From an uncultured Acidobacteriota bacterium (GTDB lineage Bacteria > Acidobacteriota > Terriglobia > Terriglobales > Acidobacteriaceae): a stretch of 64,000 nt of DNA. The first letter of the stretch is position 1. Each line of letters begins with the position of its first letter. The position numbers were made by a program, and so were the translations under genes. Under the pieces are notes generated by a model that did no database searches, was not told where the DNA came from, and saw only the letters and a program-made list of their open reading frames with translations. Location: the NCBI GenBank assembly GCA_903832055.1, contig CAILAC010000010.1:434001-498000 (forward strand), written 5' to 3'. Below, piece after piece: positions 5,147-31,794 of the stretch.

Positions 5147-5411
5147 AGACTTGAGATTTCCTTTCCCTGTTTAAATGCGCAAGTTACGGTGAGTGAATGC
5201 CGAGATTAGAAAGTTCTCATCATAGGCATCAGTTTGCCCGAATTGAGCAGGGGAAAAGCGACAGGTTCCGACCCTTAATGATTGGAGTATACCAAGAGTC
5301 TGGCTGCATGGATAGACAACTTACGTACCGCACACACCTTTGAAGTCCGGCAATCCTGTCCGGTAATGGGCCGTCTAATTGGACGACCTATCCCGATGCC
5401 CCTACTTTCGA

Positions 5412-5984: not shown

Positions 5985-6205
5985 CCGATTTCTCCTTGTG
6001 ATTGCAGACCTCCTCCCCCGAGGCCGATCTTTAGATTTGAGTGTACAACGGTCTTCCCGAATTTCCATGCAAGAAATTGCGCAGAGTTGAAACGAAAGCG
6101 ACCAGCCCGCTGATCTTTACGCGTTATTCACGTTTTCAGGCCAGCGGGAGTCTGCCTAAACAGCAGAATTTTCGGCTTTGGCTTACCGCACGAGGAAATT
6201 TCCCA

Positions 6206-6814
6206 TCAGTACAGCAATCCACCGGCTTCAGCCCGAATGGCGTCCAAAAGCGAGTGCAGCGCGGCAATGCGTGGGATGGCGAGTTCCCGGGCGCGAGGCA
6301 GTTGCAGTTTCCCGGGCAACTCATCGAGAGCGCGCTGCAACACAGGAATCGCGTCAGAATACGTGGCGTAGCGTGTGTCCCTGCCCACCTTGACCAGGGT
6401 TCGCAGGGCTCCGATGGCACCCAATTGCTCCAGGATGTCTGCGTCCCTGAGGACGATTGCCTCCGGAAGAACGGCTTTGTCTTTGGCCTGATGTGTGCGC
6501 ATTGCCTCTGCGACAAGGTCCAATTTTGCTTGCGGGAAGCCCCATTCGCTGAGCAATTCCTGACTTCGGGCGATGGTATAGGGCACATGATCCCAGCCGG
6601 CAAGCAGGGCAGGATCTGCCGGTCGGTGACCGATAAACACCCCAAGATCGTGCATCCAGGCCGAGGCGAACAAGACGTCATCGTCATAGGCACCGCCCTC
6701 GGCTATCTCGCGAGTCAGAGCGTACAGCCGGGGCTGATGGCCAAATTTGTCTACTGGCTGTGCTTCTGCGCGAATGTAGGCAACCACGGATTCGCGCCAG
6801 GATGGACTTGTCAT
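6206..6814 (-). CDS. HD-domain metal-dependent phosphohydrolase
   Basis: 202 residues. The HD superfamily metal-binding set is visible: His26 (FGHQPRLY), His55-Asp56 (WMHDLGVF) and Asp124 (LRDADILEQLG), with further histidines at 63, 76 and 108. The family hydrolyses phosphate esters of nucleotides or related molecules; the substrate here is not predictable. Its ATG overlaps the stop of the mannose-6-phosphate isomerase gene by ATGA (6811-6814), so the two are translationally coupled. This suggests, without proving, a housekeeping link to sugar-phosphate metabolism. Confidence 0.8.
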   Translation of the reverse strand: MTSPSWRESVVAYIRAEAQPVDKFGHQPRLYALTREIAEGGAYDDDVLFASAWMHDLGVFIGHRPADPALLAGWDHVPYTIARSQELLSEWGFPQAKLDLVAEAMRTHQAKDKAVLPEAIVLRDADILEQLGAIGALRTLVKVGRDTRYATYSDAIPVLQRALDELPGKLQLPRARELAIPRIAALHSLLDAIRAEAGGLLY

Positions 6815-16168: not shown

Positions 16169-16232
16169 CTTGCGCTGGCGGTGATAGGATGTGGAGACAA
16201 ACCGTCAATTGCAAAGCCCGGAGAGTAGCGCT

Positions 16233-17597
16233 ATGAGCGAATTCGTAGAACTGGAAACAGCCCCTATGACCACAGAGCAGGTCGTCAGCATTACGCGCGC
16301 CAACAATTACGGCACGTGGCGGATGCAGAAGACGTGGAAGCCGCTGCATGTGGTCGATGCGGAGGGGTGCTATTTCATTGATGTGACGGGCAAGCGGTAT
16401 CTGGATTTCTCTTCGCAGCTGATGTGTGTGAACCTGGGGCACAAGAATCCGCGGGTGATTGAGGCGATTGCGGAGCAGGCCCGTGAGTTGCCGTACATTG
16501 CTCCGGGATATGCGACGACGGCGCGGGCCAGGCTGAGCCAGAAGCTGCTGGAGGTGCTGCCGGAGGGGCTGGAGAAGTTCTTCTTTGCGACTTCGGGGAC
16601 GGAGGCGAACGAGGCTGCATTCAAGATTGCGCGGATGTATACGGGCAAGACGAAGATTATTTCGCGCTATCGGAGTTATCACGGTTCGACGATGGCTTCG
16701 ATTGCGGCGACGGGCGACCCGCGACGGTGGGCGATGGAGCCGGGCGGCAAGGGGCAGGGTTTCATTTTTGCGCCGGAGACGAACTGTTACAAGTGCCCTA
16801 TCAAGCATAGTTATCCTAGCTGCGATGTGGCTTGTGTGGATTACATCGAACATATGATTCGCAATGAGTCGGATGTGGCGGCAATTATTGTGGAACCTAT
16901 TGTTGGCACGAATGGCGTGTTAGTTCCGCCGAAGGAATATATGCCGCGGCTGCGAGCTATTTGCGATGCCTATGGCGTGCTGATGATTGCGGATGAAGTG
17001 ATGACTGGGTGGGGACGCACTGGTAAGTGGTTTTGCGTGGATCACTGGGGCGTGAAGCCGGACATTCTGGTGACCGCGAAGGGTATCACTTCAGCGTATG
17101 TGCCGCTGGGTTTGTGCGCTACGACGAAGAAGATTGCGGATTACTTTGAAGAGCATTACTTCGCGCATGGGCATACGTATGAAGCGCATCCGATGACGAC
17201 GGGCCCTGCGGTGGCGACGATTGAAGAGATGCACCGGCTGGGGTTGGTGGAGCGGGCGGCGGCGCTGGAGCCGTATGTTCGCGCAAAGCTAGAGGCGCTG
17301 AAGGAGAAGCATGTGTCGGTGGGGGATGTGCGGGGGATGGGGCTTTTCTGGGCGGTTGAGTTAGTCAAGAACCGCGAGACAAAGGAGCCCTTTAACACGA
17401 TGCGCGACAAGGTTGAGGGCAAGCTGCTGGTGGTGGACCAGGTGGCGGCCAAGATGATGGGCGTGGGGGTGGCGCAGCAGGCGTGGGTGAGCCACTTTGT
17501 GATTGCTCCGCCGCTGATTGTGACTGAGGCTGAGCTGGATTTTGGCATTGGTGCGCTGGATGAGGCGCTGGCAATTGCGGATGCGCTGGTGGAGTAG
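16233..17597 (+). CDS. Class III PLP aminotransferase (beta-alanine/omega-amino acid type candidate)
   Basis: 454 residues, fold type I subgroup II (omega-transaminases). Seen: YFIDVTGKRYLDFSSQ, FFATSGTEANEAAFKIAR, SRYRSYHGSTMA, the PLP-binding aspartate in MIADEVMTGWGRTGK, and the PLP lysine in LVTAKGITSAYVPLG. A cysteine cluster (CYKCP ... SCDVAC, around residues 185-205) is shared by a subgroup usually annotated only as aspartate aminotransferase family. ATG 16233 has GGAGAG eight bases upstream. Being beside the preT-preA-NCS1 genes suggests transamination of beta-alanine, the end product of reductive pyrimidine breakdown; taurine, GABA or alanine-glyoxylate transamination are alternatives. 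It is preceded by the clpC terminator, so it has its own promoter. Confidence 0.8.
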   Translation: MSEFVELETAPMTTEQVVSITRANNYGTWRMQKTWKPLHVVDAEGCYFIDVTGKRYLDFSSQLMCVNLGHKNPRVIEAIAEQARELPYIAPGYATTARARLSQKLLEVLPEGLEKFFFATSGTEANEAAFKIARMYTGKTKIISRYRSYHGSTMASIAATGDPRRWAMEPGGKGQGFIFAPETNCYKCPIKHSYPSCDVACVDYIEHMIRNESDVAAIIVEPIVGTNGVLVPPKEYMPRLRAICDAYGVLMIADEVMTGWGRTGKWFCVDHWGVKPDILVTAKGITSAYVPLGLCATTKKIADYFEEHYFAHGHTYEAHPMTTGPAVATIEEMHRLGLVERAAALEPYVRAKLEALKEKHVSVGDVRGMGLFWAVELVKNRETKEPFNTMRDKVEGKLLVVDQVAAKMMGVGVAQQAWVSHFVIAPPLIVTEAELDFGIGALDEALAIADALVE

Positions 17598-17624
17598 TGC
17601 ATAAGTGCGATGCGAATTGCGAAT

Positions 17625-17921
17625 CTAAATCAGAAACTTCTGCGCGTCGCGACTACGGTGAAAGATACGGTAAATCTCAACCAGATCGGCATAGACGCGG
17701 TAGTAGATGACGTACCTGCCGGTAGGAATGCTTCGCAATCGCGGATTGAACGTATTGGCTCGGCTTCGACCGAGGAGTGGATTTCGCCTCAGTTTGATAA
17801 GTGTTAGCGTGATCGAGTCGAGCACACGGTCGGCGATTTCAGCATTTCCGGATTTGTTGGCGAGATAGACCCAGATTTCATCGAGGTCGGTCAGAGCTCG
17901 CCTGGAGTACCTAAGCCGCAT
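17625..17921 (-). CDS. RelE/ParE-family toxin
   Basis: 98-residue basic protein. It starts with MRLRYSRRALTDLDEIWVYL, the ParE-type opening, followed by the RIADRVLDSI-like helix, the RNPLLGRSR turn, and the C-terminal beta strands RYVIYYRVYADLVEIYRIFHRSRD. ParE relatives poison gyrase and RelE relatives cleave mRNA on the ribosome; ParE is more likely from this opening and from its partner. Its ATG lies 11 bases inside the upstream antitoxin gene (17911-17921 overlap), the classic antitoxin-then-toxin order. A start 14 codons earlier is possible but lies within the antitoxin frame and is less likely. Confidence 0.85.
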   Translation of the reverse strand: MRLRYSRRALTDLDEIWVYLANKSGNAEIADRVLDSITLTLIKLRRNPLLGRSRANTFNPRLRSIPTGRYVIYYRVYADLVEIYRIFHRSRDAQKFLI

Positions 17922-18189
17922 GAGAGGCGGCGAGTGTCGCCCGGCCGCGCTGCTTGACACCATCCATCATTGCCGTGATTGCCTCATCGGAGTCGAGATC
18001 GATGTATTCGCCGGCTTCAATATCGCTTTCGCCTTCCTCAATTGCGGCGATCAACTCCATGCGAGCGCGTTCCCGTTCAACCCAAAGATCGATCGCACAG
18101 TTAACTGCCTCAGCAGGACTCTGATAGCGGCCTGTTTCGACGAGGTGCTGGACGAAGGAATTCTGTTCGGGAGTGAGTTCAATCTGCAT
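17911..18189 (-). CDS. ParD-like antitoxin
   Basis: 92 residues, ribbon-helix-helix N-terminus (MQIELTPEQNSFVQHLVETGRYQSPAEAVNCAIDL), the pattern of CC2985/ParD antitoxins, then an acidic Glu/Asp-rich middle (IEEGESDIEAGEYIDLDSDE) that would wrap the toxin. It should neutralise the downstream toxin and repress its own promoter. The short upstream gap to the permease gene (18190-18248) must hold that promoter. The pair sits between two catabolic genes, as a small mobile-like insertion might, but no direct repeats are seen. Confidence 0.85.
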   Translation of the reverse strand: MQIELTPEQNSFVQHLVETGRYQSPAEAVNCAIDLWVERERARMELIAAIEEGESDIEAGEYIDLDSDEAITAMMDGVKQRGRATLAASHAA

Positions 18190-18248
18190 GGCTTAAGGCT
18201 AGGACTCTGGGGATGGCTTGTCAAGACAGCAATCAGTCTTCTCAAAGA

Positions 18249-19664
18249 CTAAGCCTGCGCTTGTTCCTCGATTGCGACCGGCGAGAGGCGCATCAGGGCA
18301 GCATAGACAAAGCCAGCAAGGAAAAAGCCTACGAACCAGCTGTAGTCATAGAGGAAATGGAGCGACGGGACGAAAAGTCCGATAAGTGCTACGACCACGC
18401 CTGTTACCAGCGCTGCGATAGCTCGCGGGTTGATGCCTTTGGTGTAGTGATAGATGCCTTCGCGATGATAGAGAGAGTTTACAGACAGCTTGGTTTTGCG
18501 GATGAAGAAGTAATCGCAGACCATGATGCCTGCTACAGGGCCTAAGAGGCCGGAGTAACCTTCGAGCCAGCCGAAGATATAGGCGTCGGGGGTGGCCAGC
18601 AGTTTCCAGGGCTGCATGGCGAGGCCGAGGAAGCCGGTAATCATACCGCCGGTGCGGTAGCTGATGAGTCGCGGATAAACATTCGAAAAGTCGTTGGAGG
18701 GGCTAACTACGTTGGCGCCGATGTTGACGTTGAGCGTGGCGATGAGGATGGCGATGAGGGCAATGAAGGCCACGACGGGCTGGTGGAAGCGGCCGATGAG
18801 GAGGATGGGGTTCCAGATTGGTTCGCCGAAGAGGACGACCGAGGCCGAGGTGCAGGCGATGCCGACGAAGGTGTAGAGGGTCATGGCGACGGGCAGGCCA
18901 AAGCCCTGGCCGACGATCTGCGCGCCCTGGGACTTGGAGTAGCGGGTGAAATCGGGGATATTCAAAGCGAGCGTGGCCCAGTAGCCGACCATGCCGGTGA
19001 GCGCGGGGAAGAAGACGGGCAGGAATTCGTGCCAGTTGTGGAACTTGCTGGGGGTTTCGAGCATGGCACCGAAGCTGCCCGCCTTGACGCGCACCCAGAT
19101 GAGCAGGGCTGCGGCCATGACGAACATGAAGGGCGCACCGAAGCCCTGGAGGAAGCGGATGGATTCGACGCCACGCCAGACGACGGCCATATTCAAAAGC
19201 CAGAAGCCGAGGAAGCAGGCCCAGACGGCCCAATCAACGTGTGCGACGGAGGGCCAGACGACGAGCAGCATGGAGTGGATGGCGGTGCCGCCGATCCAGG
19301 ACTGGATCCCGAACCAGCCGCAGGCAACGAGGGCGCGCAGAATTGCGGGGATGTTTGCGCCACGGACGCCGAAGGGCGCGCGAATGAAGACGGGAAAGGG
19401 GATACCGTATTTGGCGCCGGCGTGGGCATTGAGCAGCATGGGGATGAGCACGATGAGGTTGCCGATGAGCACGGTGCCGACGGCCTGCTTCCAATCCATG
19501 CCTTTGGCGATGAGCGAGGAAGCGAGCTGGTAGGTGGTGATCTCCATGGACATGGAGAACCAGAGGGCGATGTAGTTATAGGTGCCCCAGGTGCGGTGGG
19601 CGGGGGTGGTGGGGGCGAGGTCGTCGTTGATGAGAGAGGGGTCGATTTGGGGCGATTTGTTCAA
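18249..19664 (-). CDS. NCS1-family nucleobase/hydantoin/allantoin permease
   Basis: 471-residue integral membrane protein of the nucleobase:cation symporter-1 family, with about 12 transmembrane helices. The N-terminal LAPTTPAHRTWGTYNYIALW and the IPAILRALVACGWFGIQSWIGG and NIPDFTRYSKSQ blocks are family hallmarks. Substrates include uracil, allantoin, hydantoins and cytosine; with preT-preA upstream on the same strand uracil or thymine is likely, though the allantoin genes at 27-32 kb make allantoin possible. The start is taken as TTG 19664, which has GAGGAG five bases upstream; a GTG at 19718 lies inside the palindromic repeat and is rejected. An 89-base gap containing the repeat separates it from preA. 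Confidence 0.88.
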   Translation of the reverse strand: MNKSPQIDPSLINDDLAPTTPAHRTWGTYNYIALWFSMSMEITTYQLASSLIAKGMDWKQAVGTVLIGNLIVLIPMLLNAHAGAKYGIPFPVFIRAPFGVRGANIPAILRALVACGWFGIQSWIGGTAIHSMLLVVWPSVAHVDWAVWACFLGFWLLNMAVVWRGVESIRFLQGFGAPFMFVMAAALLIWVRVKAGSFGAMLETPSKFHNWHEFLPVFFPALTGMVGYWATLALNIPDFTRYSKSQGAQIVGQGFGLPVAMTLYTFVGIACTSASVVLFGEPIWNPILLIGRFHQPVVAFIALIAILIATLNVNIGANVVSPSNDFSNVYPRLISYRTGGMITGFLGLAMQPWKLLATPDAYIFGWLEGYSGLLGPVAGIMVCDYFFIRKTKLSVNSLYHREGIYHYTKGINPRAIAALVTGVVVALIGLFVPSLHFLYDYSWFVGFFLAGFVYAALMRLSPVAIEEQAQA

Positions 19665-19699
19665 TGCGGCTCCTCGGAATGTGAGTGTTTGGCTAAGAG

Positions 19700-19752
19700 T
19701 CGCTCCCACCCTGGCCACAAAAACAAAAGCGTGGCGAGGGTGGGGTACCCGG
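19700..19752. repeat. Dispersed palindromic repeat, copy 3
   Basis: Palindrome with arms CCCACCCTGGCCAC (19705-19718) and GTGGCGAGGGTGGGG (19731-19745), loop of 12 A-rich bases, ending TACCCGG. It is the same plan as copies at 10908 and 12381 but without the leader. It lies between preA and the permease gene, inside what should be one transcript. Confidence 0.7.
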
Positions 19753-19753
19753 C

Positions 19754-21220
19754 TTAGAGTATCGGAGGCTCTGTGGCGCAGTTTGCTCCCCTGGTGCGTT
19801 CATCCCAGGTTTCGGGGGGAAGGCCGGTCGGGACTTCGACCATGGTGATGCAGTTGTCTACCGGGCAGACGCAGGAGCAGAGGTTGCAGCCGACGCATTC
19901 GGTCTGGTCAACGCGGGGAATGCGGGCGAGGGGGGTGGGGTAGGGGCCGTGTGCGGGCGAGTGGAGGCCTGCGCCCTGGGTGCGTTCGCGGCGGGTGACG
20001 GAGGTGACGGTGATGCGGTTGTGGCTGGCGGCCTCATGGCTAGTGGGGATGGGGTGCAGTTCGACGTGGCCGTCAACAGGCCCTGAAACGCGGTCGAGAT
20101 GAATGCACTGGTGTGCGCCATCCCAGCAGGCAATGTGGCAGAGGTCGCAGCCGATGCACTTTTGCTCGTCGATCTGGGCGACGATTTTGAAGTTGAGATT
20201 GAGGTGCTTCCACTCCGTGACGCGGTTGACGGAGAGGCCGCGGAAGTCTTCGAGGGTGCGGAAGCCTTTGCCGCGCATCCAGTTGCTGAGGCCGTCGGCC
20301 ATGTCTTCAACGATGCGATAGCCGTAATGCATGGCGGCGGTGCAGACCTGGACGGTGCCGCAGCCGAGGAGGATGAATTCTGCAGCGTCGGACCAGGTAG
20401 CGATGCCGCCGATGCCTGAGAGCGGGAGGGCCGAGGCAGGGTCGGCCATGACGGATTGGACCATGTTGAGCGCGATGGGCTTGACGGCGGGGCCGCAGTA
20501 GCCTCCGTGGGAGCTTTTGCCGCCGACGTTGGGGCGTGGAACAAGGGTGTCGAGATCGATGCCGGTGATGGAGTTGATGGTGTTGATTGCGCTCAAGCCA
20601 TCTGCGCCGCCGAGTTTTGCAGCGCGGGCGACGGTGCGGATGTCGGCGATGTTGGGCGTGAGTTTGACGAGGACGGGGGTGCGGGCGACTTCCTTGACCC
20701 ACTCGGTGATCATCTGTGCGTACTCGGGGACCTGGCCGACGGCGGAGCCCATGCCGCGCTCGCTCATGCCGTGGGGGCAGCCGAAGTTGAGTTCAAGGCC
20801 ATCGGCGCCGGCGTCTTCTGAGCGCTGGACGATGTCGTGCCAGGCCTCTCGGGTGGATTCAACCATGAGGGAGGCGATGACGGCGTGGGCGGGGTAGCGC
20901 TTTTTGACTTCGGTGAGCTCGCGCAGGTTGGTTTCGATGGGGCGGTCCGAGATGAGTTCAATGTTGTTGAAGCCCATCATGCGCTGGCCCATCCAGTCGA
21001 TAGAGGAGTAGCGCGAGGAGACATTGGTGATGGGTGCGCCGATGGTTTTCCAGACAGCGCCGCCCCAGCCAGCGTCAAAGGCGCGCATGATCTGTTCGCC
21101 GCAGTTGGTGGGGGGTGCAGAGGCGAGCCAGAAGGGGTTGGGGCAGTTGATGCCGCCGGCAAAGTTGCGGACAGCGAGGTCGGGGGTGAAGTGCGGAGAG
21201 CCGGACTTAATGCTTGACAT
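19754..21220 (-). CDS. preA: NAD-dependent dihydropyrimidine dehydrogenase, catalytic subunit
   Basis: 488 residues. FMN-binding TIM barrel (DHOD-like; residues about 10-320: GGINCPNPFWLASAP, GADGLELNFGCPHGMSERGMG, LVKLTPNIADI, INTINSITGIDLD, GIGGIATWSDAAEFILLG) followed by a C-terminal double [4Fe-4S] ferredoxin domain (KCIGCDLCHIAC and ECVGCNLCSCVCP). With PreT it reduces uracil and thymine to dihydro forms using NADH. Where mammalian enzyme has its catalytic Cys (GLACGQ), this protein has Val161 (GSAVGQ); see findings. Start ATG 21220 overlaps the end of preT by 14 bases, so the subunits are coupled. The longer frame to 21541 is antisense-like to nothing and simply overlaps preT. Confidence 0.9.
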   Translation of the reverse strand: MSSIKSGSPHFTPDLAVRNFAGGINCPNPFWLASAPPTNCGEQIMRAFDAGWGGAVWKTIGAPITNVSSRYSSIDWMGQRMMGFNNIELISDRPIETNLRELTEVKKRYPAHAVIASLMVESTREAWHDIVQRSEDAGADGLELNFGCPHGMSERGMGSAVGQVPEYAQMITEWVKEVARTPVLVKLTPNIADIRTVARAAKLGGADGLSAINTINSITGIDLDTLVPRPNVGGKSSHGGYCGPAVKPIALNMVQSVMADPASALPLSGIGGIATWSDAAEFILLGCGTVQVCTAAMHYGYRIVEDMADGLSNWMRGKGFRTLEDFRGLSVNRVTEWKHLNLNFKIVAQIDEQKCIGCDLCHIACWDGAHQCIHLDRVSGPVDGHVELHPIPTSHEAASHNRITVTSVTRRERTQGAGLHSPAHGPYPTPLARIPRVDQTECVGCNLCSCVCPVDNCITMVEVPTGLPPETWDERTRGANCATEPPIL

Positions 21221-22634
21221 GTGCGACCTCGGCAGCCGAGTTGAATTTGGCCAAGATGCCATGGGCGGCGCGTTTGCCGTCGGCAATGGCGTCCACGACT
21301 TCGCGGCCGCCGTTGGCGCAGTCACCGCCGGCAAAGAAGCGGGGATGGGTGGTTTGGCCGGTGGCGCGCTCGATGGCGATGCGGCCTTGCTCGACGGTGA
21401 TGTGGCGGAACTCAGCGAGAAGCTGGGTGAGCGGCGATTGGCCGATGGCGGGGATGACGGTGCGGCACTCCATGGTGAAGAGCGAATGCGGGACGGGTTC
21501 AAAACGATCGGATTTGCGATTGTCAGCCGGATGATTGCCAATGGGCTGGACGGCCTCTATATCGAGCAGCAGACTCCCGTCCTGAGCCTTGCGAATTGCT
21601 ACGGGCAGGCGATGCCAGAGGAAACTGATGCCCTCACGACGGGCGTGGTCAAATTCGAAGTCGAAGGCTGAGACGTCGTTTGGCCCGCGTCGGTAGAGCA
21701 TCGTGACGGGGTCTGCGCCGAGGCGGCGGGCGGCTACGGCGGCGTCGATGGCGGTGTTCCCTGCCCCTACGACAACCACTGCGCCGGACATCTTTGTGAT
21801 GTGTCCGGTCTTGTAGGCGGAGATGAGTTGGAGGGCGTTGAGGATGCCGTGCGTCTCATGGTCGGCGCCGCCCTGGATCGATTCGGACTCGCCGGGGATG
21901 CCGAGGCTTTGCATCGCGCCGAGGCCAACGCCCAGGAATACGTAGTCGAATTCTGCTTCGAGGGCTTCGAGCTGGGCGGTGGTTTCGATAGCCTCTGAGA
22001 GGCGGAATTCGACGCCGGTCTGGCGGATGAGCTCGACCTCGCGGAGGCTGTCGGCGGTGGGCAGCTTGTATTCGGCGACGCCGTAGGTGTTGAGGCCGCC
22101 GGGGAGAGGGCGGCGTTCGATGACGGTGACTTGCGCTCCGGCGCGGCGGAGCTCAGCGGCGCAGGCGAGCGAGGCCGGACCGCTGCCGACGCAGGCGACT
22201 CGCAGCGGAATCGCTGGGGGCGGAACTGGAATCAGGGGCTCGCCCGAGGCGTGGAAGGCGTCCATGGCGTGGCGCTGCAACTGGGCAATCTGAATGGGCG
22301 GGCGATCGTAGCGGTGCATGACGCAGGCGCCCTCGCAGAGTACCTCGACGGGGCAAACGCGGGAACAACTGCCGGCGAGGACGTTGGCGTCGAGAATCTT
22401 GCGGCCGGAACCGCGGAGATTACCGCTGGCGATGCGCTTGATGAAGCCGGGTACGTCAATATGCGTGGGGCAGGCGACCATGCAGGGCGCGTCAAAGCAA
22501 TGCAGGCAGCGGTTGGACTCAACGACTGCGGCCTGGGCTGAAAGCGGCGGATGCAGTTCTGCAAAGCGCTGCCGAATCTCAGGATGCTCACTGAAAGGAC
22601 TGCTGACAGTTGTTAGCAAAAGCGTTTCCTTCAA
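21207..22634 (-). CDS. preT: Dihydropyrimidine dehydrogenase, electron-transfer subunit
   Basis: 475 residues, GltD-like. N-terminal Fe-S region with CLHCFDAPCMVACP (about 43-56) and SCSRVCPVEVLCEGAC; FAD motif VACVGSGPASLACAAEL (about 147); NAD(P)H motif VVVVGAGNTAIDAAVAARRLG (about 289); C-terminal FAD block FFAGGDCANGG. It takes electrons from NADH and passes them through Fe-S clusters to PreA. It heads a minus-strand operon preT-preA-NCS1. The start is uncertain: TTG 22634 is the first possible codon, and TTG 22619 has AAGGA seven bases upstream and may be the real one. Confidence 0.9.
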   Translation of the reverse strand: MKETLLLTTVSSPFSEHPEIRQRFAELHPPLSAQAAVVESNRCLHCFDAPCMVACPTHIDVPGFIKRIASGNLRGSGRKILDANVLAGSCSRVCPVEVLCEGACVMHRYDRPPIQIAQLQRHAMDAFHASGEPLIPVPPPAIPLRVACVGSGPASLACAAELRRAGAQVTVIERRPLPGGLNTYGVAEYKLPTADSLREVELIRQTGVEFRLSEAIETTAQLEALEAEFDYVFLGVGLGAMQSLGIPGESESIQGGADHETHGILNALQLISAYKTGHITKMSGAVVVVGAGNTAIDAAVAARRLGADPVTMLYRRGPNDVSAFDFEFDHARREGISFLWHRLPVAIRKAQDGSLLLDIEAVQPIGNHPADNRKSDRFEPVPHSLFTMECRTVIPAIGQSPLTQLLAEFRHITVEQGRIAIERATGQTTHPRFFAGGDCANGGREVVDAIADGKRAAHGILAKFNSAAEVAHVKH

Positions 22635-23811: not shown

Positions 23812-24408
23812 TCAGGCGTGAACAGCCTGAGCCACATCTGCGGCGGGCGCGCCAGCCGGGCTGTTTGCATTGATTGAAGAGGTGCGGTAGCCGTGCGCTG
23901 CCAGGTGCTTGCCCATGGGCGCGTACATGGCTTCGTCATGTGGCTGCCAGGTGGCCAGACCGTCGACGTAGCGGTTGTACATGCAAAAAGCTGCGGCGAT
24001 GAGCACTGTATCGTGGATTTCGATATCGGTAGCGCCCAGTGCGCGTGCGGCCTGCACGTCAGCTTCGGTGACGAGTTTGCCGCCTTGCTGCACCTTGCCC
24101 GCGATTACCAGCAGGCTTTTCAACTTCTGGGAGATCGGGGCCTGCGTGAAGTCGCTTGCGACCTGTGTGACTATTTCGCTGTTGCCGAGGTGGCAAGCGG
24201 CGGCGGCTCCGTGGCTGGTCTGGCAAAAATAGCAGTTGTTCAGCGACGAGACATAGGTCGCAATCAACTCTCGCTCGCCTGGCTCCAGGCTGTTGGGTTC
24301 ATGGAGCAGCACATGGGCCAGTTCGCGCATGGGTTTGGCCGTTTCAGGGCGGAAGGCGAAGGCAGCGCTGATTCCGGGCAATTCCTGGGGAAGATTGATG
24401 TGGGGCAT
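23812..24408 (-). CDS. AhpD-like (carboxymuconolactone decarboxylase family) protein, copy 2
   Basis: 198-residue all-helical protein of the AhpD/CMD family (peroxidase-related enzymes). The AhpD catalytic set is complete: Glu, eleven residues, Cys-Tyr-Phe-Cys, three residues, His (RELIATYVSSLNN then CYFCQTSH). AhpD uses these cysteines to reduce peroxiredoxin or peroxide. ATG 24408 is clear. It is the last gene of a likely minus-strand operon guaD, permease, AhpD-like 1, AhpD-like 2, only 23 bases after its paralogue. The two proteins share long identical stretches (DTVLIAAAFCMYNRYVDGLATWQP), so they arose by tandem duplication. A role in the purine cluster is unknown. Confidence 0.82.
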   Translation of the reverse strand: MPHINLPQELPGISAAFAFRPETAKPMRELAHVLLHEPNSLEPGERELIATYVSSLNNCYFCQTSHGAAAACHLGNSEIVTQVASDFTQAPISQKLKSLLVIAGKVQQGGKLVTEADVQAARALGATDIEIHDTVLIAAAFCMYNRYVDGLATWQPHDEAMYAPMGKHLAAHGYRTSSINANSPAGAPAADVAQAVHA

Positions 24409-24431
24409 ATTTGGTGTCCTTCTCGATGGGG

Positions 24432-25013
24432 CTATGGGTGAACTTTATCTGACGTTGCCTGCGGCACGTAGTCGCGGCTGACGGTGACATAGCCTTCCTT
24501 TGCTGTGCGCTTGCCCCGTTCGCGGTAAAGCTCTTCATCCTGGGGCTGCCAGGTGGCGAGGCCGTCGACATAGCGGTTGTACATGCAAAAAGCGGCGGCA
24601 ATGAGCACCGTATCGTGGATTTCAACGTCGGTGGCACCAGCCGCGCGCGCCTCTTCGACGTCGGCCGCTGTCACATACTTGCCTCCGCGCTGCACCTTGC
24701 CAGCAATGACGAGGAGGGTCTTGAGTTTGGCGGAAATATCGGCATGCTGGAAGTCTGCCTTGACGCGTCGCACCAGTTCTTCGTCTTCGTTGAGATGGGC
24801 AGACGCAATGAAGCCGTGAACGGTCTGGCAGAAGTAGCAGTCATTGAGGTACGAAACGTAGGTGGCGATCAGTTCGCGCTCGCCGGGGGTGAGGGAGTTT
24901 GGCCCGCGCAGCAGGACTTCAACTAACTCGTTGAGTGGCTTCGCGGTTTCGGGGCGAAAGGCCATCGGTCCGCGAATGCCCTGAAGGCCTGGGGGAAGTT
25001 CAATGTGAGGCAT
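24432..25013 (-). CDS. AhpD-like (carboxymuconolactone decarboxylase family) protein, copy 1
   Basis: 193 residues, paralogue of the next gene. It has the same E-x11-C-x2-C-x3-H arrangement (GERELIATYVSYLND then CYFCQTVH) and the same C-terminal motif NRYVDGLATWQP. ATG 25013 lies 8 bases after the permease stop, so it is translated in the same operon. The reading to 25214 would overlap the permease and is rejected. Possible roles are peroxide or disulfide reduction for an oxidative step (xanthine or urate oxidation yields peroxide), but that is only a guess; the family also includes enzymes with non-redox activity. Confidence 0.82.
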   Translation of the reverse strand: MPHIELPPGLQGIRGPMAFRPETAKPLNELVEVLLRGPNSLTPGERELIATYVSYLNDCYFCQTVHGFIASAHLNEDEELVRRVKADFQHADISAKLKTLLVIAGKVQRGGKYVTAADVEEARAAGATDVEIHDTVLIAAAFCMYNRYVDGLATWQPQDEELYRERGKRTAKEGYVTVSRDYVPQATSDKVHP

Positions 25014-25021
25014 GGGAGGGT

Positions 25022-26350
25022 TCAGTTCCTTTCCGAGGGAAGTGGCGTGGCCGGCGCTGGAATCTGCTGGCTGAGGAAGAGTCGGCGCAGTGGCAGGCCG
25101 CAGAGCACAATCGCAACGCCAACGAGCGCAGGCATGGGATCGTGCATCAGGATAAGGAAGGCGACCAGGCTGCTTAGGACAATGAACAGGATTGGCGCAA
25201 CCGGAAACCACCACGCCCTCACCGGATCCGTTGTGCGGAAAAGCGTTGAGGCGGCCAGCGCTAGAAACAGTACAGCCGAAAAAATGATGAAAGCCAGTAC
25301 GCGGTCAAACGCGCCCAGCAGCAGTACTGCAACGGCGAGCGCGGTTTGCAGCAGGATTGCATTTGCGGGCGTGCCCCAGCGCGGGTGGAGCCTGCCGAAT
25401 GCGGGCAGAAACGCGCCTTTCTGTGCCATTGCATAGGAGACGCGGGGGGCGGCCATCGAGAGGGCGGCGATTCCAGAACAGACACAAACCAGCACGCTCA
25501 GCGAAAGGACGCGCGCGCCTGCCTCTCCAAACAACGCCAAACCAAACTGGGCGACGAATGCCGTATTCGACGAGATTTGCTCAATCGGGACGACGGCGAG
25601 AAAGGCCGCGCTGATGAGCAGGTAAACCAGCGTGACCAGGCTAACGCCACCGAGGAAAGCCAATGGAAGTGTGCGGCGCGGATTGCGCACTTCACCGGCA
25701 ATTTTGCTCGCCTCCCACCAGCCTCCAAAGCTGAAGAAGGCGCTGACTACGCCGCCGGCGATGGCCGGAAACAGAGCGTCAGAGCCCGGCCGACGCGCGG
25801 TCAGCGGCAACAGATTGCCCAGATGCGCGTGGCCTGAGACAACTGCCCATGCCACGAGTCCAAAGAGCACGACCAGTTTGAGAATGTTCACCGAACTCAT
25901 GATGCCGCCGCTGAGGCGGGTTCCGAGCAGATTGATGGCGCCGAACAGCACCAGGATTAACACCGGGGCGAATGCCAGATATTTCGCGCCGACGGGAAGC
26001 ACCTGTGCCAGATACGGCACTGAGCCGACGGCCAGCGCGGCAGCCACACCGGGATACATGACAATCGAGCTCATCCAGCCGTAGAGAAATGCGACTGTTT
26101 CGCCGTATCCAGCGCGCAGATAGACGTATTCGCCGCCTGACTCTGGAAACCGGATGGCGAGTTCTGAGTAGCATAGGGCGCCGCACATCGCCATCAGCGC
26201 CATGCCCAGCCAGACCGCAGCCAGCAAGAGCGGAGAACCCAGCGACTTGGCCATCGCCGCAGGAGTGAGAAAGATGCCCAGGGCGATGGATTCGCCCGTG
26301 ACGACGGCAATGGCCGCAGCCAGCCCAAGTTGTCTTTGTTGGAGAGCCAT
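25022..26350 (-). CDS. APC-superfamily amino acid/base permease
   Basis: 442 residues, about 12 transmembrane helices, amino acid-polyamine-organocation family. The N-terminal LGLAAAIAVVTGESIALGIFLTPAAMAKSLGSP and the ELAIRFPESGGEYVYLRAGYGE block are typical of APC exchangers (the GS/AG-G-E-Y motif). It follows guaD by 71 bases and precedes two AhpD-like genes. It may carry a base, ureide or amino acid; its place suggests a nitrogen compound connected with guanine deamination. Its start is ATG 26350. Confidence 0.83.
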   Translation of the reverse strand: MALQQRQLGLAAAIAVVTGESIALGIFLTPAAMAKSLGSPLLLAAVWLGMALMAMCGALCYSELAIRFPESGGEYVYLRAGYGETVAFLYGWMSSIVMYPGVAAALAVGSVPYLAQVLPVGAKYLAFAPVLILVLFGAINLLGTRLSGGIMSSVNILKLVVLFGLVAWAVVSGHAHLGNLLPLTARRPGSDALFPAIAGGVVSAFFSFGGWWEASKIAGEVRNPRRTLPLAFLGGVSLVTLVYLLISAAFLAVVPIEQISSNTAFVAQFGLALFGEAGARVLSLSVLVCVCSGIAALSMAAPRVSYAMAQKGAFLPAFGRLHPRWGTPANAILLQTALAVAVLLLGAFDRVLAFIIFSAVLFLALAASTLFRTTDPVRAWWFPVAPILFIVLSSLVAFLILMHDPMPALVGVAIVLCGLPLRRLFLSQQIPAPATPLPSERN

Positions 26351-26421: not shown

Positions 26422-26901
26422 CTAGTAATCAACCTTTGCCGGTAGCGTCTGCCACGCAGCAAATGTCTGGTTGGCTTCGTTCTGCAGTAATTGTGCTGAC
26501 GGAATCATCCGCGCATCGCGACTCTTGCGAAACTCCTCGTAGAGAAAGGCGTCATCAAAGCCCGCTGAAGCGGCATCCTGCTGGTTGCTGCCAAAGTAAC
26601 ATGCCTCCAGACGCGCCCAGTAAATGGCAGCCAGGCACATGGGGCATGGTTCGCAACTGGTATAAATTTCACAGCCGGCCAACGAAAACGTACCGAGGGT
26701 CCGGCAGGCATTTCGAATTGCGTTTACCTCGCCGTGGGCCGTCGGGTCGTTGGTGGTGGTCACAGAATTAGCGCCCTCGGCAATAATCTCCCCATCGCGC
26801 ACAATCACGGCAGCAAAGGGCCCCCCCTTGCCTGCCAGAATATTTTCCGTCGCGAGCGCAATGGCGCGACGCATGTGCTCAGGATTGGGCGAAAGCGGCA
26901 T
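26422..26901 (-). CDS. Guanine deaminase-like zinc deaminase
   Basis: 159 residues, cytidine deaminase fold, most like the small bacterial guanine deaminase (GuaD). It hydrolyses guanine to xanthine and ammonia. Zinc ligands: His56 in the H-G-E motif (PTAHGEVNAIR), with Glu58 as proton shuttle, and Cys86/Cys89 in PCPMC. The NSVTTTNDPTAH and TSCEPCPMCLAAIYWAR blocks and the C-terminal domain-swapped tail (LQNEANQTFAAW) match GuaD. The H-G-E in place of the more usual H-A-E is also found in yeast cytosine deaminase, so cytosine cannot be excluded. It is divergent from allantoinase with only 48 bases between the start codons. Confidence 0.85.
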   Translation of the reverse strand: MPLSPNPEHMRRAIALATENILAGKGGPFAAVIVRDGEIIAEGANSVTTTNDPTAHGEVNAIRNACRTLGTFSLAGCEIYTSCEPCPMCLAAIYWARLEACYFGSNQQDAASAGFDDAFLYEEFRKSRDARMIPSAQLLQNEANQTFAAWQTLPAKVDY

Positions 26902-26949: not shown

Positions 26950-28449
26950 ATGGCACAGGAGACAAATCAGGCAAGCGGCGCGGCCAGCGAAGAAACAGCC
27001 ATTGGAAGCTGGAAGACCTCGGTGACATGGGCTTTCCGTTCCACGCGGGTTGTAACGGCTGAGGGACTGCGCCCGGCGACATTGCTGGTGCGGTCAGGCC
27101 GTATTGAAGAGGTGACCTCGTGGGAAGCTGTTCCGACTGACGCGCATCTGCGCGACTACGGCGATCTGGCGATTCTGCCAGGGCTGGTCGATACCCACGT
27201 GCACATCAATGATCCTGGCCGCACCCACTGGGAGGGCTTTGAGACCGCTACACAGGCTGCCGCAGCCGGTGGAGTAACAACCGTGGTTGATATGCCGCTT
27301 AATTCTGAGCCGGAAACCATTACCGTGGCGGCACTCGAAGCCAAGCGTGGGGCTGCGGCAGGCAAAGCCTGGGTCGATTGGATGGCCTGGGGAGGCGTCG
27401 TAGGCAACCATGACCAGGGCGGAAACGAAGCTGAAATTGCAGCGCTGATCGAGGCGGGCGTCGCGGGATTCAAATGCTTCCTCGTCAACTCTGGCATCGA
27501 CGGCTTTACCTGGGTAGACGAGGCGCAGCTGCGCAAGGCCCTCTCAGTGCTGGTGGGGACGGGACTGCCGCTGCTGGCGCATGCCGAGGTTGCCGCACCC
27601 ATCGATTGGGCAACTGGCGAAATTAACGCGGGTGTTTTATGTAGCTACGATGGCCGGGTCGACTGGCGACGCTACTGGACCTACCTTGCTTCACGCCCGG
27701 ACAAGGCAGAAATGGAGGCAGTCTCTCTGCTGATCCGTCTCGCCAGGGAGTTTCCCACTCCTTTGCATATCGTCCACCTATCGAGCGCTGAAGCGCTGCC
27801 GATGATCCGCAAGGCGCGCAAAGCCGGGCTGCCGCTGACGGTGGAAACATGCCCGCAGTACCTATGGTTTGCGGCAGAGGACATTCCAGATGGCGCGACG
27901 GAATGCAAATGCGCGCCGCCGATTCGCGACAAGGCAAACCGCGATGCTCTGTGGAAGGGATTGATTGATGGCACGATCGACATGATCGCTACCGACCATT
28001 CGCCGTGCCCGCCGGAGATGAAGAATCGGGAGGCCGGCCGCTTTGATGACGCCTGGGGCGGTATTGCCAGCCTCGGCCTGGCCTTGCCCATCGTTTGGAC
28101 CGGCGTAACCCGGCGGCTGAAGGATCGTTCGCGCAGTCTGGAGCTGCTGGCCAAGTGGCTGGCGACTGAACCGGCCCGTCTGGCTGGCCTGGCTGGACGC
28201 AAAGGCGCGCTTGCCGCTGGGTACGATGCCGACCTGGTCGTCATGGACCCGGATGCGGAATGGACGGTGGCCGAGGCGGATTTGCGCTTTCGCCACAAGG
28301 TATCTCCCTACCGGGGCGCACAGTTGCACGGGCGCGTGCTCGAAACCTATCTGCGCGGCGAATGCATCTACTGGGGTCGAGGTGAGGGCGGCGTGCGCGG
28401 TGTGATCGATCCAAAAGCCCACGGGCGAGAACTGCGGCGGACAGTATGA
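26950..28449 (+). CDS. allB: Allantoinase
   Basis: Opens the hydantoin ring of allantoin to give allantoate. 499 residues, amidohydrolase superfamily. Metal ligands in family order: His83 and His85 (DTHVHIND), Lys175 (GFKCFL, the lysine that becomes carboxylated), His211 (LLAHAE), His276 (VHLSS) and Asp349 (ATDHSPCP). GRTHWEGFETATQAAAAGGVTT after the first motif is specific to allantoinases; dihydropyrimidinases have a different block. Start ATG 26950 has AAGGA five bases upstream. It overlaps the next gene by ATGA and starts a four-gene operon. The N-terminal 20 residues are a short extension. Confidence 0.93.
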   Translation: MAQETNQASGAASEETAIGSWKTSVTWAFRSTRVVTAEGLRPATLLVRSGRIEEVTSWEAVPTDAHLRDYGDLAILPGLVDTHVHINDPGRTHWEGFETATQAAAAGGVTTVVDMPLNSEPETITVAALEAKRGAAAGKAWVDWMAWGGVVGNHDQGGNEAEIAALIEAGVAGFKCFLVNSGIDGFTWVDEAQLRKALSVLVGTGLPLLAHAEVAAPIDWATGEINAGVLCSYDGRVDWRRYWTYLASRPDKAEMEAVSLLIRLAREFPTPLHIVHLSSAEALPMIRKARKAGLPLTVETCPQYLWFAAEDIPDGATECKCAPPIRDKANRDALWKGLIDGTIDMIATDHSPCPPEMKNREAGRFDDAWGGIASLGLALPIVWTGVTRRLKDRSRSLELLAKWLATEPARLAGLAGRKGALAAGYDADLVVMDPDAEWTVAEADLRFRHKVSPYRGAQLHGRVLETYLRGECIYWGRGEGGVRGVIDPKAHGRELRRTV

Positions 28450-29681
28450 CCGATCTACCCAGGGCAGACCGCATCATCGCAGAGTGCCGCATGCTGGCCG
28501 GGATGAGTGAGGAGCACGGCCGGACGACGCGGCGATTTCTTACTCCTGCGGTCGCGGCAGTGCACGGCCACCTGCGGAACCGCATGCTGGCCCTCGGCAT
28601 GACGGTAACTCTGGATGCTGCCGGAAACCTGCGCGGCCTATGGCGGCCTGACGAAGCCGGCGCGCGGCGACTGGTGATGGGCTCACATATCGATACGGTT
28701 CCCGATGCCGGAGCTTTTGACGGCGTGCTGGGCGTGGTGATGGCGCTCGAACTGGTCACGTCCGCGAAGGCCAATTCCCTGCCGCTTGCAGTTGAAGTCA
28801 TCGCCTTTTCTGAGGAGGAAGGCGTTCGCTTTGGCCTGCCTTTTATCGGGAGCCGCGCCGTCGCTGGCCGGTTTGATTCGAAGCTGCTCGCCCTTGAGGA
28901 TGCAGAAGGGATTTCGCTGGAGGACGCGATTCGCAACTTTGGTCTCGACCCGGCCCGCCTGGACGAAGCCCTGGTCGATGATGAGGCCATCGGCTTTCTG
29001 GAAATTCACATCGAACAGGGTCCGGTGCTCGAAGCAGAAGAGCTTCCGCTGGGCATTGTGACCGGAATCGTCGGCCAGACCCGCTGCGAACTCACTTTCA
29101 ACGGCCATGCCAACCACGCCGGGACCACCCCGATGAGCCTGCGGCGCGATGCGCTGGCTGCTGCGGCTGAGTGGATTCTCGCGGTTGAGACCGCCGCCAA
29201 CGAATCAGAGGGCACCTTGGTTGCGACAGTTGGCAAGGTCAAGGCTGAACCAAACGCCGGAAACGTGATTGCCGGCAGCGTCCGGTTGAGCCTTGATCTG
29301 CGATCCGAGCGTGACCAGGTTCGCGAGGAGGCCGTTGTCGGACTGCTGGATCGCGCAAACGCGATTGCAGCACGGCGCAAGTTGACCTGCCATACCAAGA
29401 CACAAATGCAGCAACCGGCTGTACCCATGGATGAACAGCTCACGGCCGTCCTCGCCGAGTCGGTCGAAGCCGCGGGTTTTACGGTACGCAGGCTGCCCAG
29501 CGGAGCAGGCCACGACGCCATGGTGATGGCCACGCGCCTGCCGACAGCGATGCTTTTTGTGCGCAGCCCTGGCGGCATCAGCCATCATCCGGACGAATCG
29601 GTAATCGCTGAAGACCTGGAGGCGGCGTTGGCGGCCGGAGAACTTTTCCTCAGCCGCGCTGCCGGAACCTTAAAGCTGTAA
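28446..29681 (+). CDS. Allantoate amidohydrolase (M20 family)
   Basis: Splits allantoate to (S)-ureidoglycine, ammonia and CO2; needs manganese. 411 residues. Metal residues: His81 and Asp92 (MGSHIDTVPDAGAFDG), the SEEEG glutamates at 123-125 and His188 (FLEIHIEQGPVLE), plus a histidine in GISHHPDE near the end. The dimerisation lid is intact (AGHDAMVMA, GNVIAGSVRLSLDLR). Blocks such as VEVIAFSEEEGVRF and GIVGQTRCELTFNGHANHAGTTPM match allantoate amidohydrolases of plants and bacteria. It overlaps allB by four bases. N-carbamoyl-amino acid hydrolases are near relatives, but order with allB and the cupin favours allantoate. Confidence 0.9.
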   Translation: MTDLPRADRIIAECRMLAGMSEEHGRTTRRFLTPAVAAVHGHLRNRMLALGMTVTLDAAGNLRGLWRPDEAGARRLVMGSHIDTVPDAGAFDGVLGVVMALELVTSAKANSLPLAVEVIAFSEEEGVRFGLPFIGSRAVAGRFDSKLLALEDAEGISLEDAIRNFGLDPARLDEALVDDEAIGFLEIHIEQGPVLEAEELPLGIVTGIVGQTRCELTFNGHANHAGTTPMSLRRDALAAAAEWILAVETAANESEGTLVATVGKVKAEPNAGNVIAGSVRLSLDLRSERDQVREEAVVGLLDRANAIAARRKLTCHTKTQMQQPAVPMDEQLTAVLAESVEAAGFTVRRLPSGAGHDAMVMATRLPTAMLFVRSPGGISHHPDESVIAEDLEAALAAGELFLSRAAGTLKL

Positions 29682-29728
29682 GTCATTTCAATTGAGCTGC
29701 AAGCAGTCGATAGTGAAAGAGGAACATC

Positions 29729-30490
29729 ATGTTGCATTTCCTGGGAGAAAGCCGAAGCAGCCTGAAGTCTGACCACCTGTTGCAGACACCCGACACGTTC
29801 ATTCGAACGCCGCTTCCGGGGGCCACCGGGGTTGAATTCATCGTCCACGCAGCGCCGCGCCTTGGTGCCGCCTTCTGCTGGATGACTGCGGAATTCAAGG
29901 AAGGGGGAATCCTGCCCCCAGCTCTGCCCGGAATCCAGCGCTTCGTCTACGTGCTCGAGGGTGAGTTGGCGCTTGCGGAAGCAGGAGAAGGCCAGTCGGA
30001 GAGCTTGTCAGTGGGGAGGTTCGCTTTCATGCCTGCCGGCATTGCGCGGCAGTTGTGCGCACGCACGGCCTCAAGGGCGGTGGTGATCGAGAAGCGCTAC
30101 GAAGCGATGAGCGGAACCTCTCAGGATGCCGCGCAAAGCGTGATCGTAGGTGACGAAGCCTCAATTGGCGCCGAGCCGCTGGGCGGCGACGATGCACTGC
30201 GGGTTAGGAGACTGATGCCCGACGGACCTGGTTGGGATTTTGCGGTGAACACCATGACCTACGATCCTGGCGCGGCGCTGGCCATGGTCGAGATCCACGT
30301 CATGGAACACGGCTTGCTCATGCTTGAGGGCGGCGGTATTTACCGGCTTGGCGACAACTGGTATCCGGTGACGGCGGGCGACTTCATCTGGATGGCCCCT
30401 TACTGCCCGCAATGGTTCGGAGCATTGGGCAAGACTCCGGCCAAATACCTCATTTACAAAGACTGGTACCGCCATCCTCTGGGAGCATAA
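29729..30490 (+). CDS. allE: (S)-ureidoglycine aminohydrolase (bicupin)
   Basis: Deaminates (S)-ureidoglycine to (S)-ureidoglycolate and ammonia with manganese. 253 residues, two cupin barrels. The metal set of the active C-terminal cupin is present: Glu188, His190, His194 and Gln228 (VEIHVMEHGLLMLEGGGIY, then WMAPYCPQWF). HGLLMLEGGGIYRLGDNWYPV is the signature of the family. The N-terminal cupin is degenerate, as in relatives. ATG 29729 has GAGGA upstream. It lies 47 bases after the amidohydrolase and 5 bases before the second amidohydrolase. Confidence 0.92.
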   Translation: MLHFLGESRSSLKSDHLLQTPDTFIRTPLPGATGVEFIVHAAPRLGAAFCWMTAEFKEGGILPPALPGIQRFVYVLEGELALAEAGEGQSESLSVGRFAFMPAGIARQLCARTASRAVVIEKRYEAMSGTSQDAAQSVIVGDEASIGAEPLGGDDALRVRRLMPDGPGWDFAVNTMTYDPGAALAMVEIHVMEHGLLMLEGGGIYRLGDNWYPVTAGDFIWMAPYCPQWFGALGKTPAKYLIYKDWYRHPLGA

Positions 30491-30495
30491 AAACC

Positions 30496-31794
30496 ATGGC
30501 AAAATCGAGAACTCCTGTGGAAAAAGCTTTGGAAAACGGTGCTGAAACCCGTGTGGAAATTTCTGTGGATATCGCGGGGTTAATGTCTGAAATCGAGGCT
30601 CTTGCGCAAATTTCCGAGGGCGATCCACCGGTTGTGACGCGGGTCGTCTTCAGCGAGGCTGACTCGCGGGCGCGGGCCTATGTAAAGGAACTCTGCCAGG
30701 CTGCGGGGCTCGCCATCCGCGAAGATGCCGTCGGCAACACCTTTGCCCGATGGGAAGGCCGTGACCCGGCTCTGGCCCCGGTGGCGACCGGCTCGCACAT
30801 CGACGCAATCCCCAATGCCGGAGCCTACGACGGAGTGGTCGGTGTGCTGGGCGGCCTTGAAGCGATCCGAACTCTGCAGCGATCCGGGTTCCGGCCGAAT
30901 CGCTCAATCGAACTGATCATTTTTACTTCAGAAGAGCCGACCCGATTTGGTATCGGTTGCCTGGGCAGCCGGATGATGGCCGGAGCGATCTCCCCGGAGC
31001 AGGCTCTGGTTTTGCAGGATAAGACGGGCCGCGGGCTCGATGAACTGCGGCATTCGGCTGGATTTACTGGAGATCTGGCTGCTGTAAAGCTGGCAGCAGG
31101 AGACTACAACTCCTTTGTTGAGTTGCATATCGAGCAGGGACCTCTACTGGAACGTGAAGGGCTGGGGCTTGGTGTTGTGACGCATATCGCTGCGCCGGCT
31201 TCGCTGCGCATTCTCATCGAGGGTGAGGGCGGGCATGCTGGAGCGATGCTGATGCCCGACCGGCATGATGCCCTTGCAGCAGGTGCCGAGTTGATTCTAG
31301 CGCTCGAAACAGCCGCCAAAACGACAGGCGCTATCGATACCGTCGCGACAGTGGGAGTCTGCGAAGTCTTCCCTGGGGCGGTCAACTCTGTACCCTCGCG
31401 TGTGCGGCTTGAGACGGATGTGCGCGACACAGATAGCGCCCGGCGCGATGGAGTACTGACAGCGCTGAAGGGTGCCGCCACCGAAGTTGCTGCCCGACGG
31501 GGCGTTCGAATCAGCTTCGAGACGGTCAATGCCGACCCACCTGCAACCTGCGATCCGGCAATACTGGCGGCGCTTGATGCCTCAATCGTTGCGGCAGGGC
31601 GGAGTGCCCGGCGGATGGTGAGCCGTGCGTATCACGATTCGCTCTTCATGGCGCGCATTGCGCCAGTGGCGATGCTCTTCATTCCCTGTCGTGGAGGGGT
31701 GAGCCACCGGCCAGACGAGTACGCGAGTCCGCACTGGATTGAAGCCGGGGTAGACGTGCTTGCGCGCACGCTGGCGCGGCTTGCCTGCCAATAG
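30496..31794 (+). CDS. Ureidoglycolate amidohydrolase (M20 family, plant UAH-like)
   Basis: Splits ureidoglycolate to glyoxylate, two ammonia and CO2, the last ureide step. 432 residues, paralogue of the allantoate enzyme. Metal region His101 and Asp112 (TGSHIDAIPNAGAYDG), Glu146/147 (FTSEEPTRFGIGCLGS), His in ELHIEQGP. Long blocks are near those I recall from Arabidopsis UAH: FTSEEPTRFGI, VTHIAAPASL, GGHAGAMLMPDRHDA, and SRAYHDSLFMARIAP with the SHRPDEYASP tail. ATG 30496 is 5 bases after the allE stop; the longer reading to 30412 overlaps allE and is rejected. Allantoate amidohydrolase is the alternative, but a second dedicated copy would be redundant beside the first. Confidence 0.87.
   Translation: MAKSRTPVEKALENGAETRVEISVDIAGLMSEIEALAQISEGDPPVVTRVVFSEADSRARAYVKELCQAAGLAIREDAVGNTFARWEGRDPALAPVATGSHIDAIPNAGAYDGVVGVLGGLEAIRTLQRSGFRPNRSIELIIFTSEEPTRFGIGCLGSRMMAGAISPEQALVLQDKTGRGLDELRHSAGFTGDLAAVKLAAGDYNSFVELHIEQGPLLEREGLGLGVVTHIAAPASLRILIEGEGGHAGAMLMPDRHDALAAGAELILALETAAKTTGAIDTVATVGVCEVFPGAVNSVPSRVRLETDVRDTDSARRDGVLTALKGAATEVAARRGVRISFETVNADPPATCDPAILAALDASIVAAGRSARRMVSRAYHDSLFMARIAPVAMLFIPCRGGVSHRPDEYASPHWIEAGVDVLARTLARLACQ

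Follow-up and report, generated by a model that had tools for sequence, protein, structure and literature searches.

The plant ureide pathway degrades allantoin by means of allantoinase, allantoate amidohydrolase (AAH), (S)-ureidoglycine aminohydrolase (UGlyAH) and ureidoglycolate amidohydrolase (UAH), with no release of urea. The E. coli all regulon uses allB, allC and allE and then proceeds via AllA, which yields urea, or via AllD. In a passage of PMC3793230, the UAH gene, which releases ammonia, is linked to plants, and AllA/DAL3, which release urea, are linked to bacteria and fungi; a passage of PMC6320678 states that UAH occurs in plants and bacteria. In the literature, no assay of a bacterial UAH was recognised from titles and the starts of abstracts, most subscription papers lying outside the search. 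Here, we analyse a stretch of 64,000 nucleotides (the window) from an uncultured Acidobacteriota bacterium (assembly GCA_903832055.1, contig CAILAC010000010.1, positions 434001 to 498000). Positions 26950 to 31794 of the window carry four genes that, judging from their sequences, very probably form an operon converting allantoin to glyoxylate without urea. The four predicted reactions are those of the plant pathway, with the difference that the bacterial genes are adjacent, and the first three are shared with the E. coli regulon. This kind of pathway is already known, and the locus adds a bacterial case.

Layout of the locus and its first three genes

All four genes are on the plus strand. The first one, allB (26950-28449; 499 aa), encodes a predicted allantoinase. 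In the NCBIfam scan, its product scored 507.5 bits with TIGR03178 (cut-off 357.9), as compared to 227.8 bits, below cut-off, as a dihydropyrimidinase. The best PDB matches of AllB are the allantoinases 8hfd, 3e74 and 3hm7, and its HxH, Lys, His, His and Asp motifs, which we take to be metal-site residues, line up with those of E. coli AllB. The second gene (28446-29681; 411 aa) encodes an M20 enzyme, the putative AAH, that passes the allantoate amidohydrolase model NF006775 (533.5 bits, cut-off 479). The third gene (29729-30490; 253 aa) encodes a cupin, the putative UGlyAH, that passes TIGR03214 (276 bits, cut-off 200) and matches 1sfn (226 bits) and the ureidoglycine aminohydrolase 4e2q (183 bits) in the PDB. 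The fourth gene (30496-31794; 432 aa) encodes a second M20 protein, the candidate UAH.

An ATGA overlap (28446-28449) joins allB to the AAH gene, 47 bases (29682-29728) separate the latter from the UGlyAH gene, and 5 bases (30491-30495) separate the UGlyAH and UAH genes. This arrangement had been described in an earlier reading of the letters of the window (the sequence-only reading) and was borne out by the positions of the open reading frames (ORFs). Possible earlier starts are found at 26734 in the frame of allB and at 30412 in that of the UAH gene. Overall, AllB, AAH and UGlyAH are names that curated family models assign above their cut-offs. Because curated models name only these three, the finding depends on the identity of the fourth gene.

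Identity of the fourth gene

Curated models alone leave the fourth gene unnamed, because its product passes only the generic TIGR01879 (351.7 bits, cut-off 204). A phmmer search against PDB sequences gave 457 bits with Arabidopsis UAH (AtUAH; 4pxe), as compared to 267 bits with L-carbamoylase 3n5f and 154 bits with E. coli AAH 1z2l. The fourth protein is 53% identical to AtUAH across 416 aa. The blocks FTSEEPTRFGI, IAAPASL and SRAYHDSLFMARI, which the sequence-only reading had likened to AtUAH, are indeed present and are identical in the AtUAH chain. When the 229 M20 ORFs longer than 350 aa in the scored loci were considered (207 distinct; the loci overlap), AtUAH scores fell into two modes: 350-500 bits for 144 ORFs (125 distinct) and no more than 300 bits for the other 85 (82 distinct).

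An M20 tree was calculated from 74 hand-picked rows comprising 38 bacterial UAH, 20 AAH, AtUAH and outgroups. The 38 bacterial UAH and AtUAH (39 rows) are separated from AAH and carbamoylases by a 100/100 branch. The 20 AAH rows, that of the locus and 19 others from sister operons, form a group on one side of a separate 100/100 branch. Grouping of 30496-31794 with allantoate or carbamoyl-amino acid hydrolases, named beforehand as the outcome that would speak against a UAH, did not occur. Diagnostic columns were those with a residue invariant in the 38 bacterial UAH rows and rare in the remaining 35 (no more than 5% of rows). AtUAH played no part in their choice and has 8/8 of these residues. 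Using all 86 columns invariant in the 38 bacterial UAH rows, AtUAH agrees at 84 positions, as compared to 54-68 for the eight non-UAH rows counted.

In both M20 enzymes of the locus, eight metal and catalytic residues, including a Glu, are conserved; we assign their roles as metal ligands and catalytic Glu by homology. The earlier claim that the metal sites are intact holds for the M20 enzymes, but these residues do not discriminate between substrates, because they are conserved in all 74 rows of the tree. An AlphaFold model of the fourth protein (22-row alignment, pLDDT 87.2) had as its best structural matches AtUAH structures 4pxb (Z 51.2, rmsd 2.5 over 416) and 4pxe (Z 51.1), followed by carbamoylases (Z 48.0) and E. 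coli AAH with allantoate (Z 44.5). These Z differences are modest, and the sequence evidence is stronger. Residue numbers in the AtUAH chain run about 37 ahead of those in the fourth protein, an offset that presumably corresponds to a plant targeting extension. AtUAH (4pxb/4pxe; EC 3.5.3.19 in a passage of PMC3793230) has its clade and its diagnostic and metal residues in common with the fourth protein, which differs in being bacterial and encoded in an operon.

Overall, every sequence test run points to the fourth gene as a UAH gene, as the sequence-only reading had proposed. Sequence, gene order and pathway context identify the four genes. A clade, eight diagnostic columns and a UGlyAH neighbour together provide a family-level criterion for bacterial UAH, to which the scanned NCBIfam models give only a generic name. 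It predicts which soil bacteria would recover all four allantoin nitrogens without urea.

Predicted route and source of allantoin

From family membership and the established chemistry of the families, we infer the substrates, the co-transcription, the nitrogen yield and the metal. AllB would open allantoin to allantoate. AAH would take one carbamoyl group off allantoate, giving (S)-ureidoglycine, NH3 and CO2, and UGlyAH would deaminate ureidoglycine to (S)-ureidoglycolate and NH3. UAH would then remove the remaining carbamoyl group, with glyoxylate, two NH3 and CO2 as products. Net, allantoin would yield glyoxylate, four NH3 and two CO2, with no urea. A binuclear Mn2+ site is described for AtUAH in a passage of PMC6117287.

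The source of allantoin would be a row of genes on another contig of the assembly, C13. There, all on the minus strand, three xanthine dehydrogenase superfamily genes are followed by genes for OHCU decarboxylase, HIU hydrolase, uricase, dihydropyrimidinase and a third M20 protein. The three xanthine dehydrogenase-like genes have Pfam domains over cut-off; their best NCBIfam models are subunits D and E for the first two and XdhB for the third, each below cut-off. The allantoin-making and allantoin-using genes sit on two separate contigs of the assembly.

Conservation of gene order and taxonomic spread

Gene order was compared in the best 80 of 323 confirmed relatives of the locus. In 76 of these 80 loci, UAH is preceded on its own strand by UGlyAH, so that the arrangement is not due to chance. 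The distance between the two genes, roughly estimated, is within about 230 bases in 74/76 loci, L101 and L080 having them farther apart. The order AllB-AAH-UGlyAH-UAH is seen in 32 loci (12 with less than 5.2 kb of upstream DNA), to which L054 adds a version with split frames: on this contig of a metagenome-assembled genome, AAH and UGlyAH are each in two pieces (4900-6500). AAH-UGlyAH-UAH occurs in 28 loci (2 with short upstream DNA), with AllB several kb farther upstream in many of them. Eight loci have AAH-AllB-UGlyAH-UAH, among them Meiothermus and both Verrucomicrobiota. UGlyAH-UAH alone is found in five loci, all with short upstream DNA, AllB-UGlyAH-UAH with AAH undetected in two (L085 and L103), and none of the three partner genes in four. 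Of the latter, L062 and L068 start at the edge of a contig, which leaves L071 and L102 as genuine exceptions.

The operon is wider than Acidobacteriota, and the sequence-only description of an acidobacterial version was too specific. In the phylum of Meiothermus (Deinococcota), 30/111 genomes match the UAH profile above 490 bits, the next match being at 297, and two Verrucomicrobiota also carry the operon. In a sample of 297 Acidobacteriota genomes, with at most six candidates scored per genome, 17 match UAH at E<=1e-100, own genome included. Cultured carriers of the operon include Acidicapsa dinghuensis (L036) and Terracidiphilus gabretensis (L046).

Spread of UAH on plasmids was considered and rejected: a tblastn search with P0004 in plasmids gave 1245 records, all below 60% identity. 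Among the 30 matches listed, the top identity was 40.9%, and those annotated were a Zn-dependent hydrolase, allantoate amidohydrolase or amidohydrolase family protein.

In L102 and in L144 (9706-10941, genome G051), UAH lies outside a purine cluster, the gene before it encoding an alanyl-tRNA synthetase and the one after it a biotin/lipoyl-domain protein; G051 has uricase and OHCU decarboxylase elsewhere. The contig of L106 is titled Betaproteobacteria and has the operon laid out as on acidobacterial contigs, possibly reflecting a mislabelled bin.

Purine-pathway genes in 61 genomes

Pathway genes were profiled in 61 genomes, those of the window and of 60 relatives. Of these, 11 have a close UAH (at least 552 bits; next match 244). 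OHCU decarboxylase is found in the same 11 genomes and in G017, and HIU hydrolase passes its cut-off in these and in G054. The association of UAH with OHCU decarboxylase gave a Fisher p of 3e-11 over the 61 genomes and, within the genus (15 genomes, 7 with both and 8 with neither), of 2e-4, relatedness not being corrected in either case and some of the 8 genomes being only 84-88% complete. PF01014 uricase is found in 8 of the 11 UAH genomes and in G017, and is missing in G010, G020 and G023. A broken pathway in G020 and G023 was rejected because their clusters carry a PF06181 (PuuD-type) urate oxidase instead, adjoining HIU hydrolase (L146 11683-12543 in G020; L203 643-1455 in G023). For G010, stretch L136 shows xanthine-dehydrogenase-type subunits only.

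AllA lyase was found in 0/61 genomes, the E. coli control being positive and AllD not being searched for; this agrees with the sequence-only reading, which had set the operon apart from the ureidoglycolate lyase route of many bacteria. The single genome with a detected allantoicase is G017, which is also the sole OHCU-positive one to lack a close UAH; the allantoicase search matched 0/14 control genomes. In G017 (contig C109; L143 7398-9185), allantoicase and OHCU decarboxylase domains are fused in a single 595-aa frame.

The urease alpha family PF00449 matched 25/61 genomes, 20 of them over cut-off. In 24 of these 25, the match covered only part of the model, at 21-30 bits, and we read these as probable other amidohydrolases. 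A full-length urease alpha was found only in G005 (196 bits), which has no close UAH. No PF00449 match was seen in the own genome.

Alternative explanations

The substrate range of M20 enzymes shifts easily, and the fourth gene could encode an N-carbamoyl-amino-acid hydrolase of the ErtE/L-carbamoylase type, or a second AAH, with a plant-like look. Its best NCBIfam matches would fit such an activity: N-carbamyl-L-glutamate amidohydrolase ErtE (NF058540) at 384 bits (cut-off 520) and allantoate amidohydrolase models at 378 and 342 bits, all below their own cut-offs. The structural Z of the carbamoylases is also just 3 under that of AtUAH. However, the fourth protein belongs with AtUAH to the separate 100/100 clade, has 8/8 diagnostic residues in common with it and falls among M20 ORFs whose AtUAH scores are bimodal, and its gene adjoins that of UGlyAH, the product of which is ureidoglycolate. 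We consider this explanation unlikely. A still less probable proposal concerns the first two genes, AllB and AAH, which might act with PreTA and the upstream class III aminotransferase in reductive pyrimidine or hydantoin catabolism. The genes preT/preA (19754-22634), an NCS1 permease and this aminotransferase are all within 11 kb of the operon. Against this stand the AllB scores given above and the two last genes of the C13 row. The C13 dihydropyrimidinase passes TIGR02033 (510 bits, cut-off 393) and remains below the allantoinase cut-off (245 versus 358); the adjacent M20 protein passes only TIGR01879 and is named by its neighbour. The pair is likely the pyrimidine counterpart. Because C13 carries it, AllB and AAH of the window are not needed for pyrimidines: the pair supplies what PreTA lacks and leaves them for allantoin, and a pyrimidine reading was rejected. 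Finally, it is very improbable that the operon was acquired and has since decayed or fallen silent, playing no part in the use of allantoin. Its patchy presence in the Acidobacteriota sample would be compatible with such a fate, but the four frames are open, active-site residues are conserved, and UAH tracks OHCU decarboxylase throughout the genus.

Several observations nevertheless weigh against an allantoin-to-glyoxylate operon ending with UAH. Among specific curated models, even the best one for the fourth protein, ErtE, stays below cut-off. In L071 and L102 (2/80), UAH stands without the other three genes nearby, with DNA present on both sides, and no AAH was detected beside UAH in L085 and L103. 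In the M20 tree, E. coli AllC, on a very long branch, falls outside the AAH rows including that of the locus; because the two do not group, the identity of AAH rests on the NCBIfam model and on context. Weak partial urease matches over cut-off occur in four of the 11 UAH genomes (G010, G020, G023 and G051) as well as in G017. The latter, with its allantoicase, is expected to make urea and is also without a full-length urease, so that urease absence is weak evidence that lends little support either way. Glyoxylate carboligase, too, was not found over cut-off.

Relationship to the plant enzymes

The one plant UAH and the one plant UGlyAH compared group with the enzymes of UAH-type operons from Acidobacteriota, Deinococcota and Verrucomicrobiota, and not with E. 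coli AllC or AllE. AtUAH lies inside the bacterial UAH clade as drawn, next to L195 and L197 from Deinococcota-phylum genomes; because its exact place is weak (63/94), no donor is named for plant UAH. In the UGlyAH tree, the enzyme of the locus is in a different clade from E. coli AllE. The plant UGlyAH 4e2q groups with operon UGlyAH, 100/100 apart from AllE and 1sef, and shares a 98/99 node with Meiothermus, 1sfn and Acidobacteriota, on a very long branch (2.79). In a passage of PMC9667741, Yue et al. 2012 is given as the source for guanine deaminase, AAH and UAH of moss being bacterial in origin. A possible, though somewhat doubtful, scenario is that plants received a bacterial ureide operon of this type, from which their UAH and UGlyAH, and perhaps their AAH, derive. 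This is a lead only, because each tree holds one plant sequence and no other eukaryotes. If it is true, "plant-type" may designate a bacterial pathway that plants acquired. The locus offers a bacterial operon for comparison with the plant pathway in studies of its origin.

Neighbouring genes

A guanine-deaminase-like gene (26422-26901, minus strand) is divergent from allB at a distance of 48 bases. Its product matches the PDB sequences of guanine deaminase 1wkq (185 bits) and guanosine deaminase 7dbf (109 bits), which we take to be from Bacillus and Arabidopsis, respectively. A GuaD-like gene is found on the minus strand in 29/80 related loci. The gene likely feeds xanthine into purine catabolism. 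Uptake of GuaD by plants together with AAH and UAH was set aside, GuaD of the locus scoring higher with 1wkq than with 7dbf.

Farther upstream, region 16191-22634 contains preT, preA, the class III aminotransferase and the NCS1 nucleobase/allantoin-type permease, near the ureide operon, whereas dihydropyrimidinase and its M20 partner are beside the urate genes on the other contig. The permease (18249-19718, minus strand) passes TIGR00800 (381.8 bits, cut-off 353.1), with allantoin permease models far below cut-off; we infer a tie to the operon from nearness only. Two tandem AhpD-like genes (23812-25214) are flanked by preT on one side and an APC permease on the other; one passes TIGR01926 over cut-off and the other looks alike by eye.

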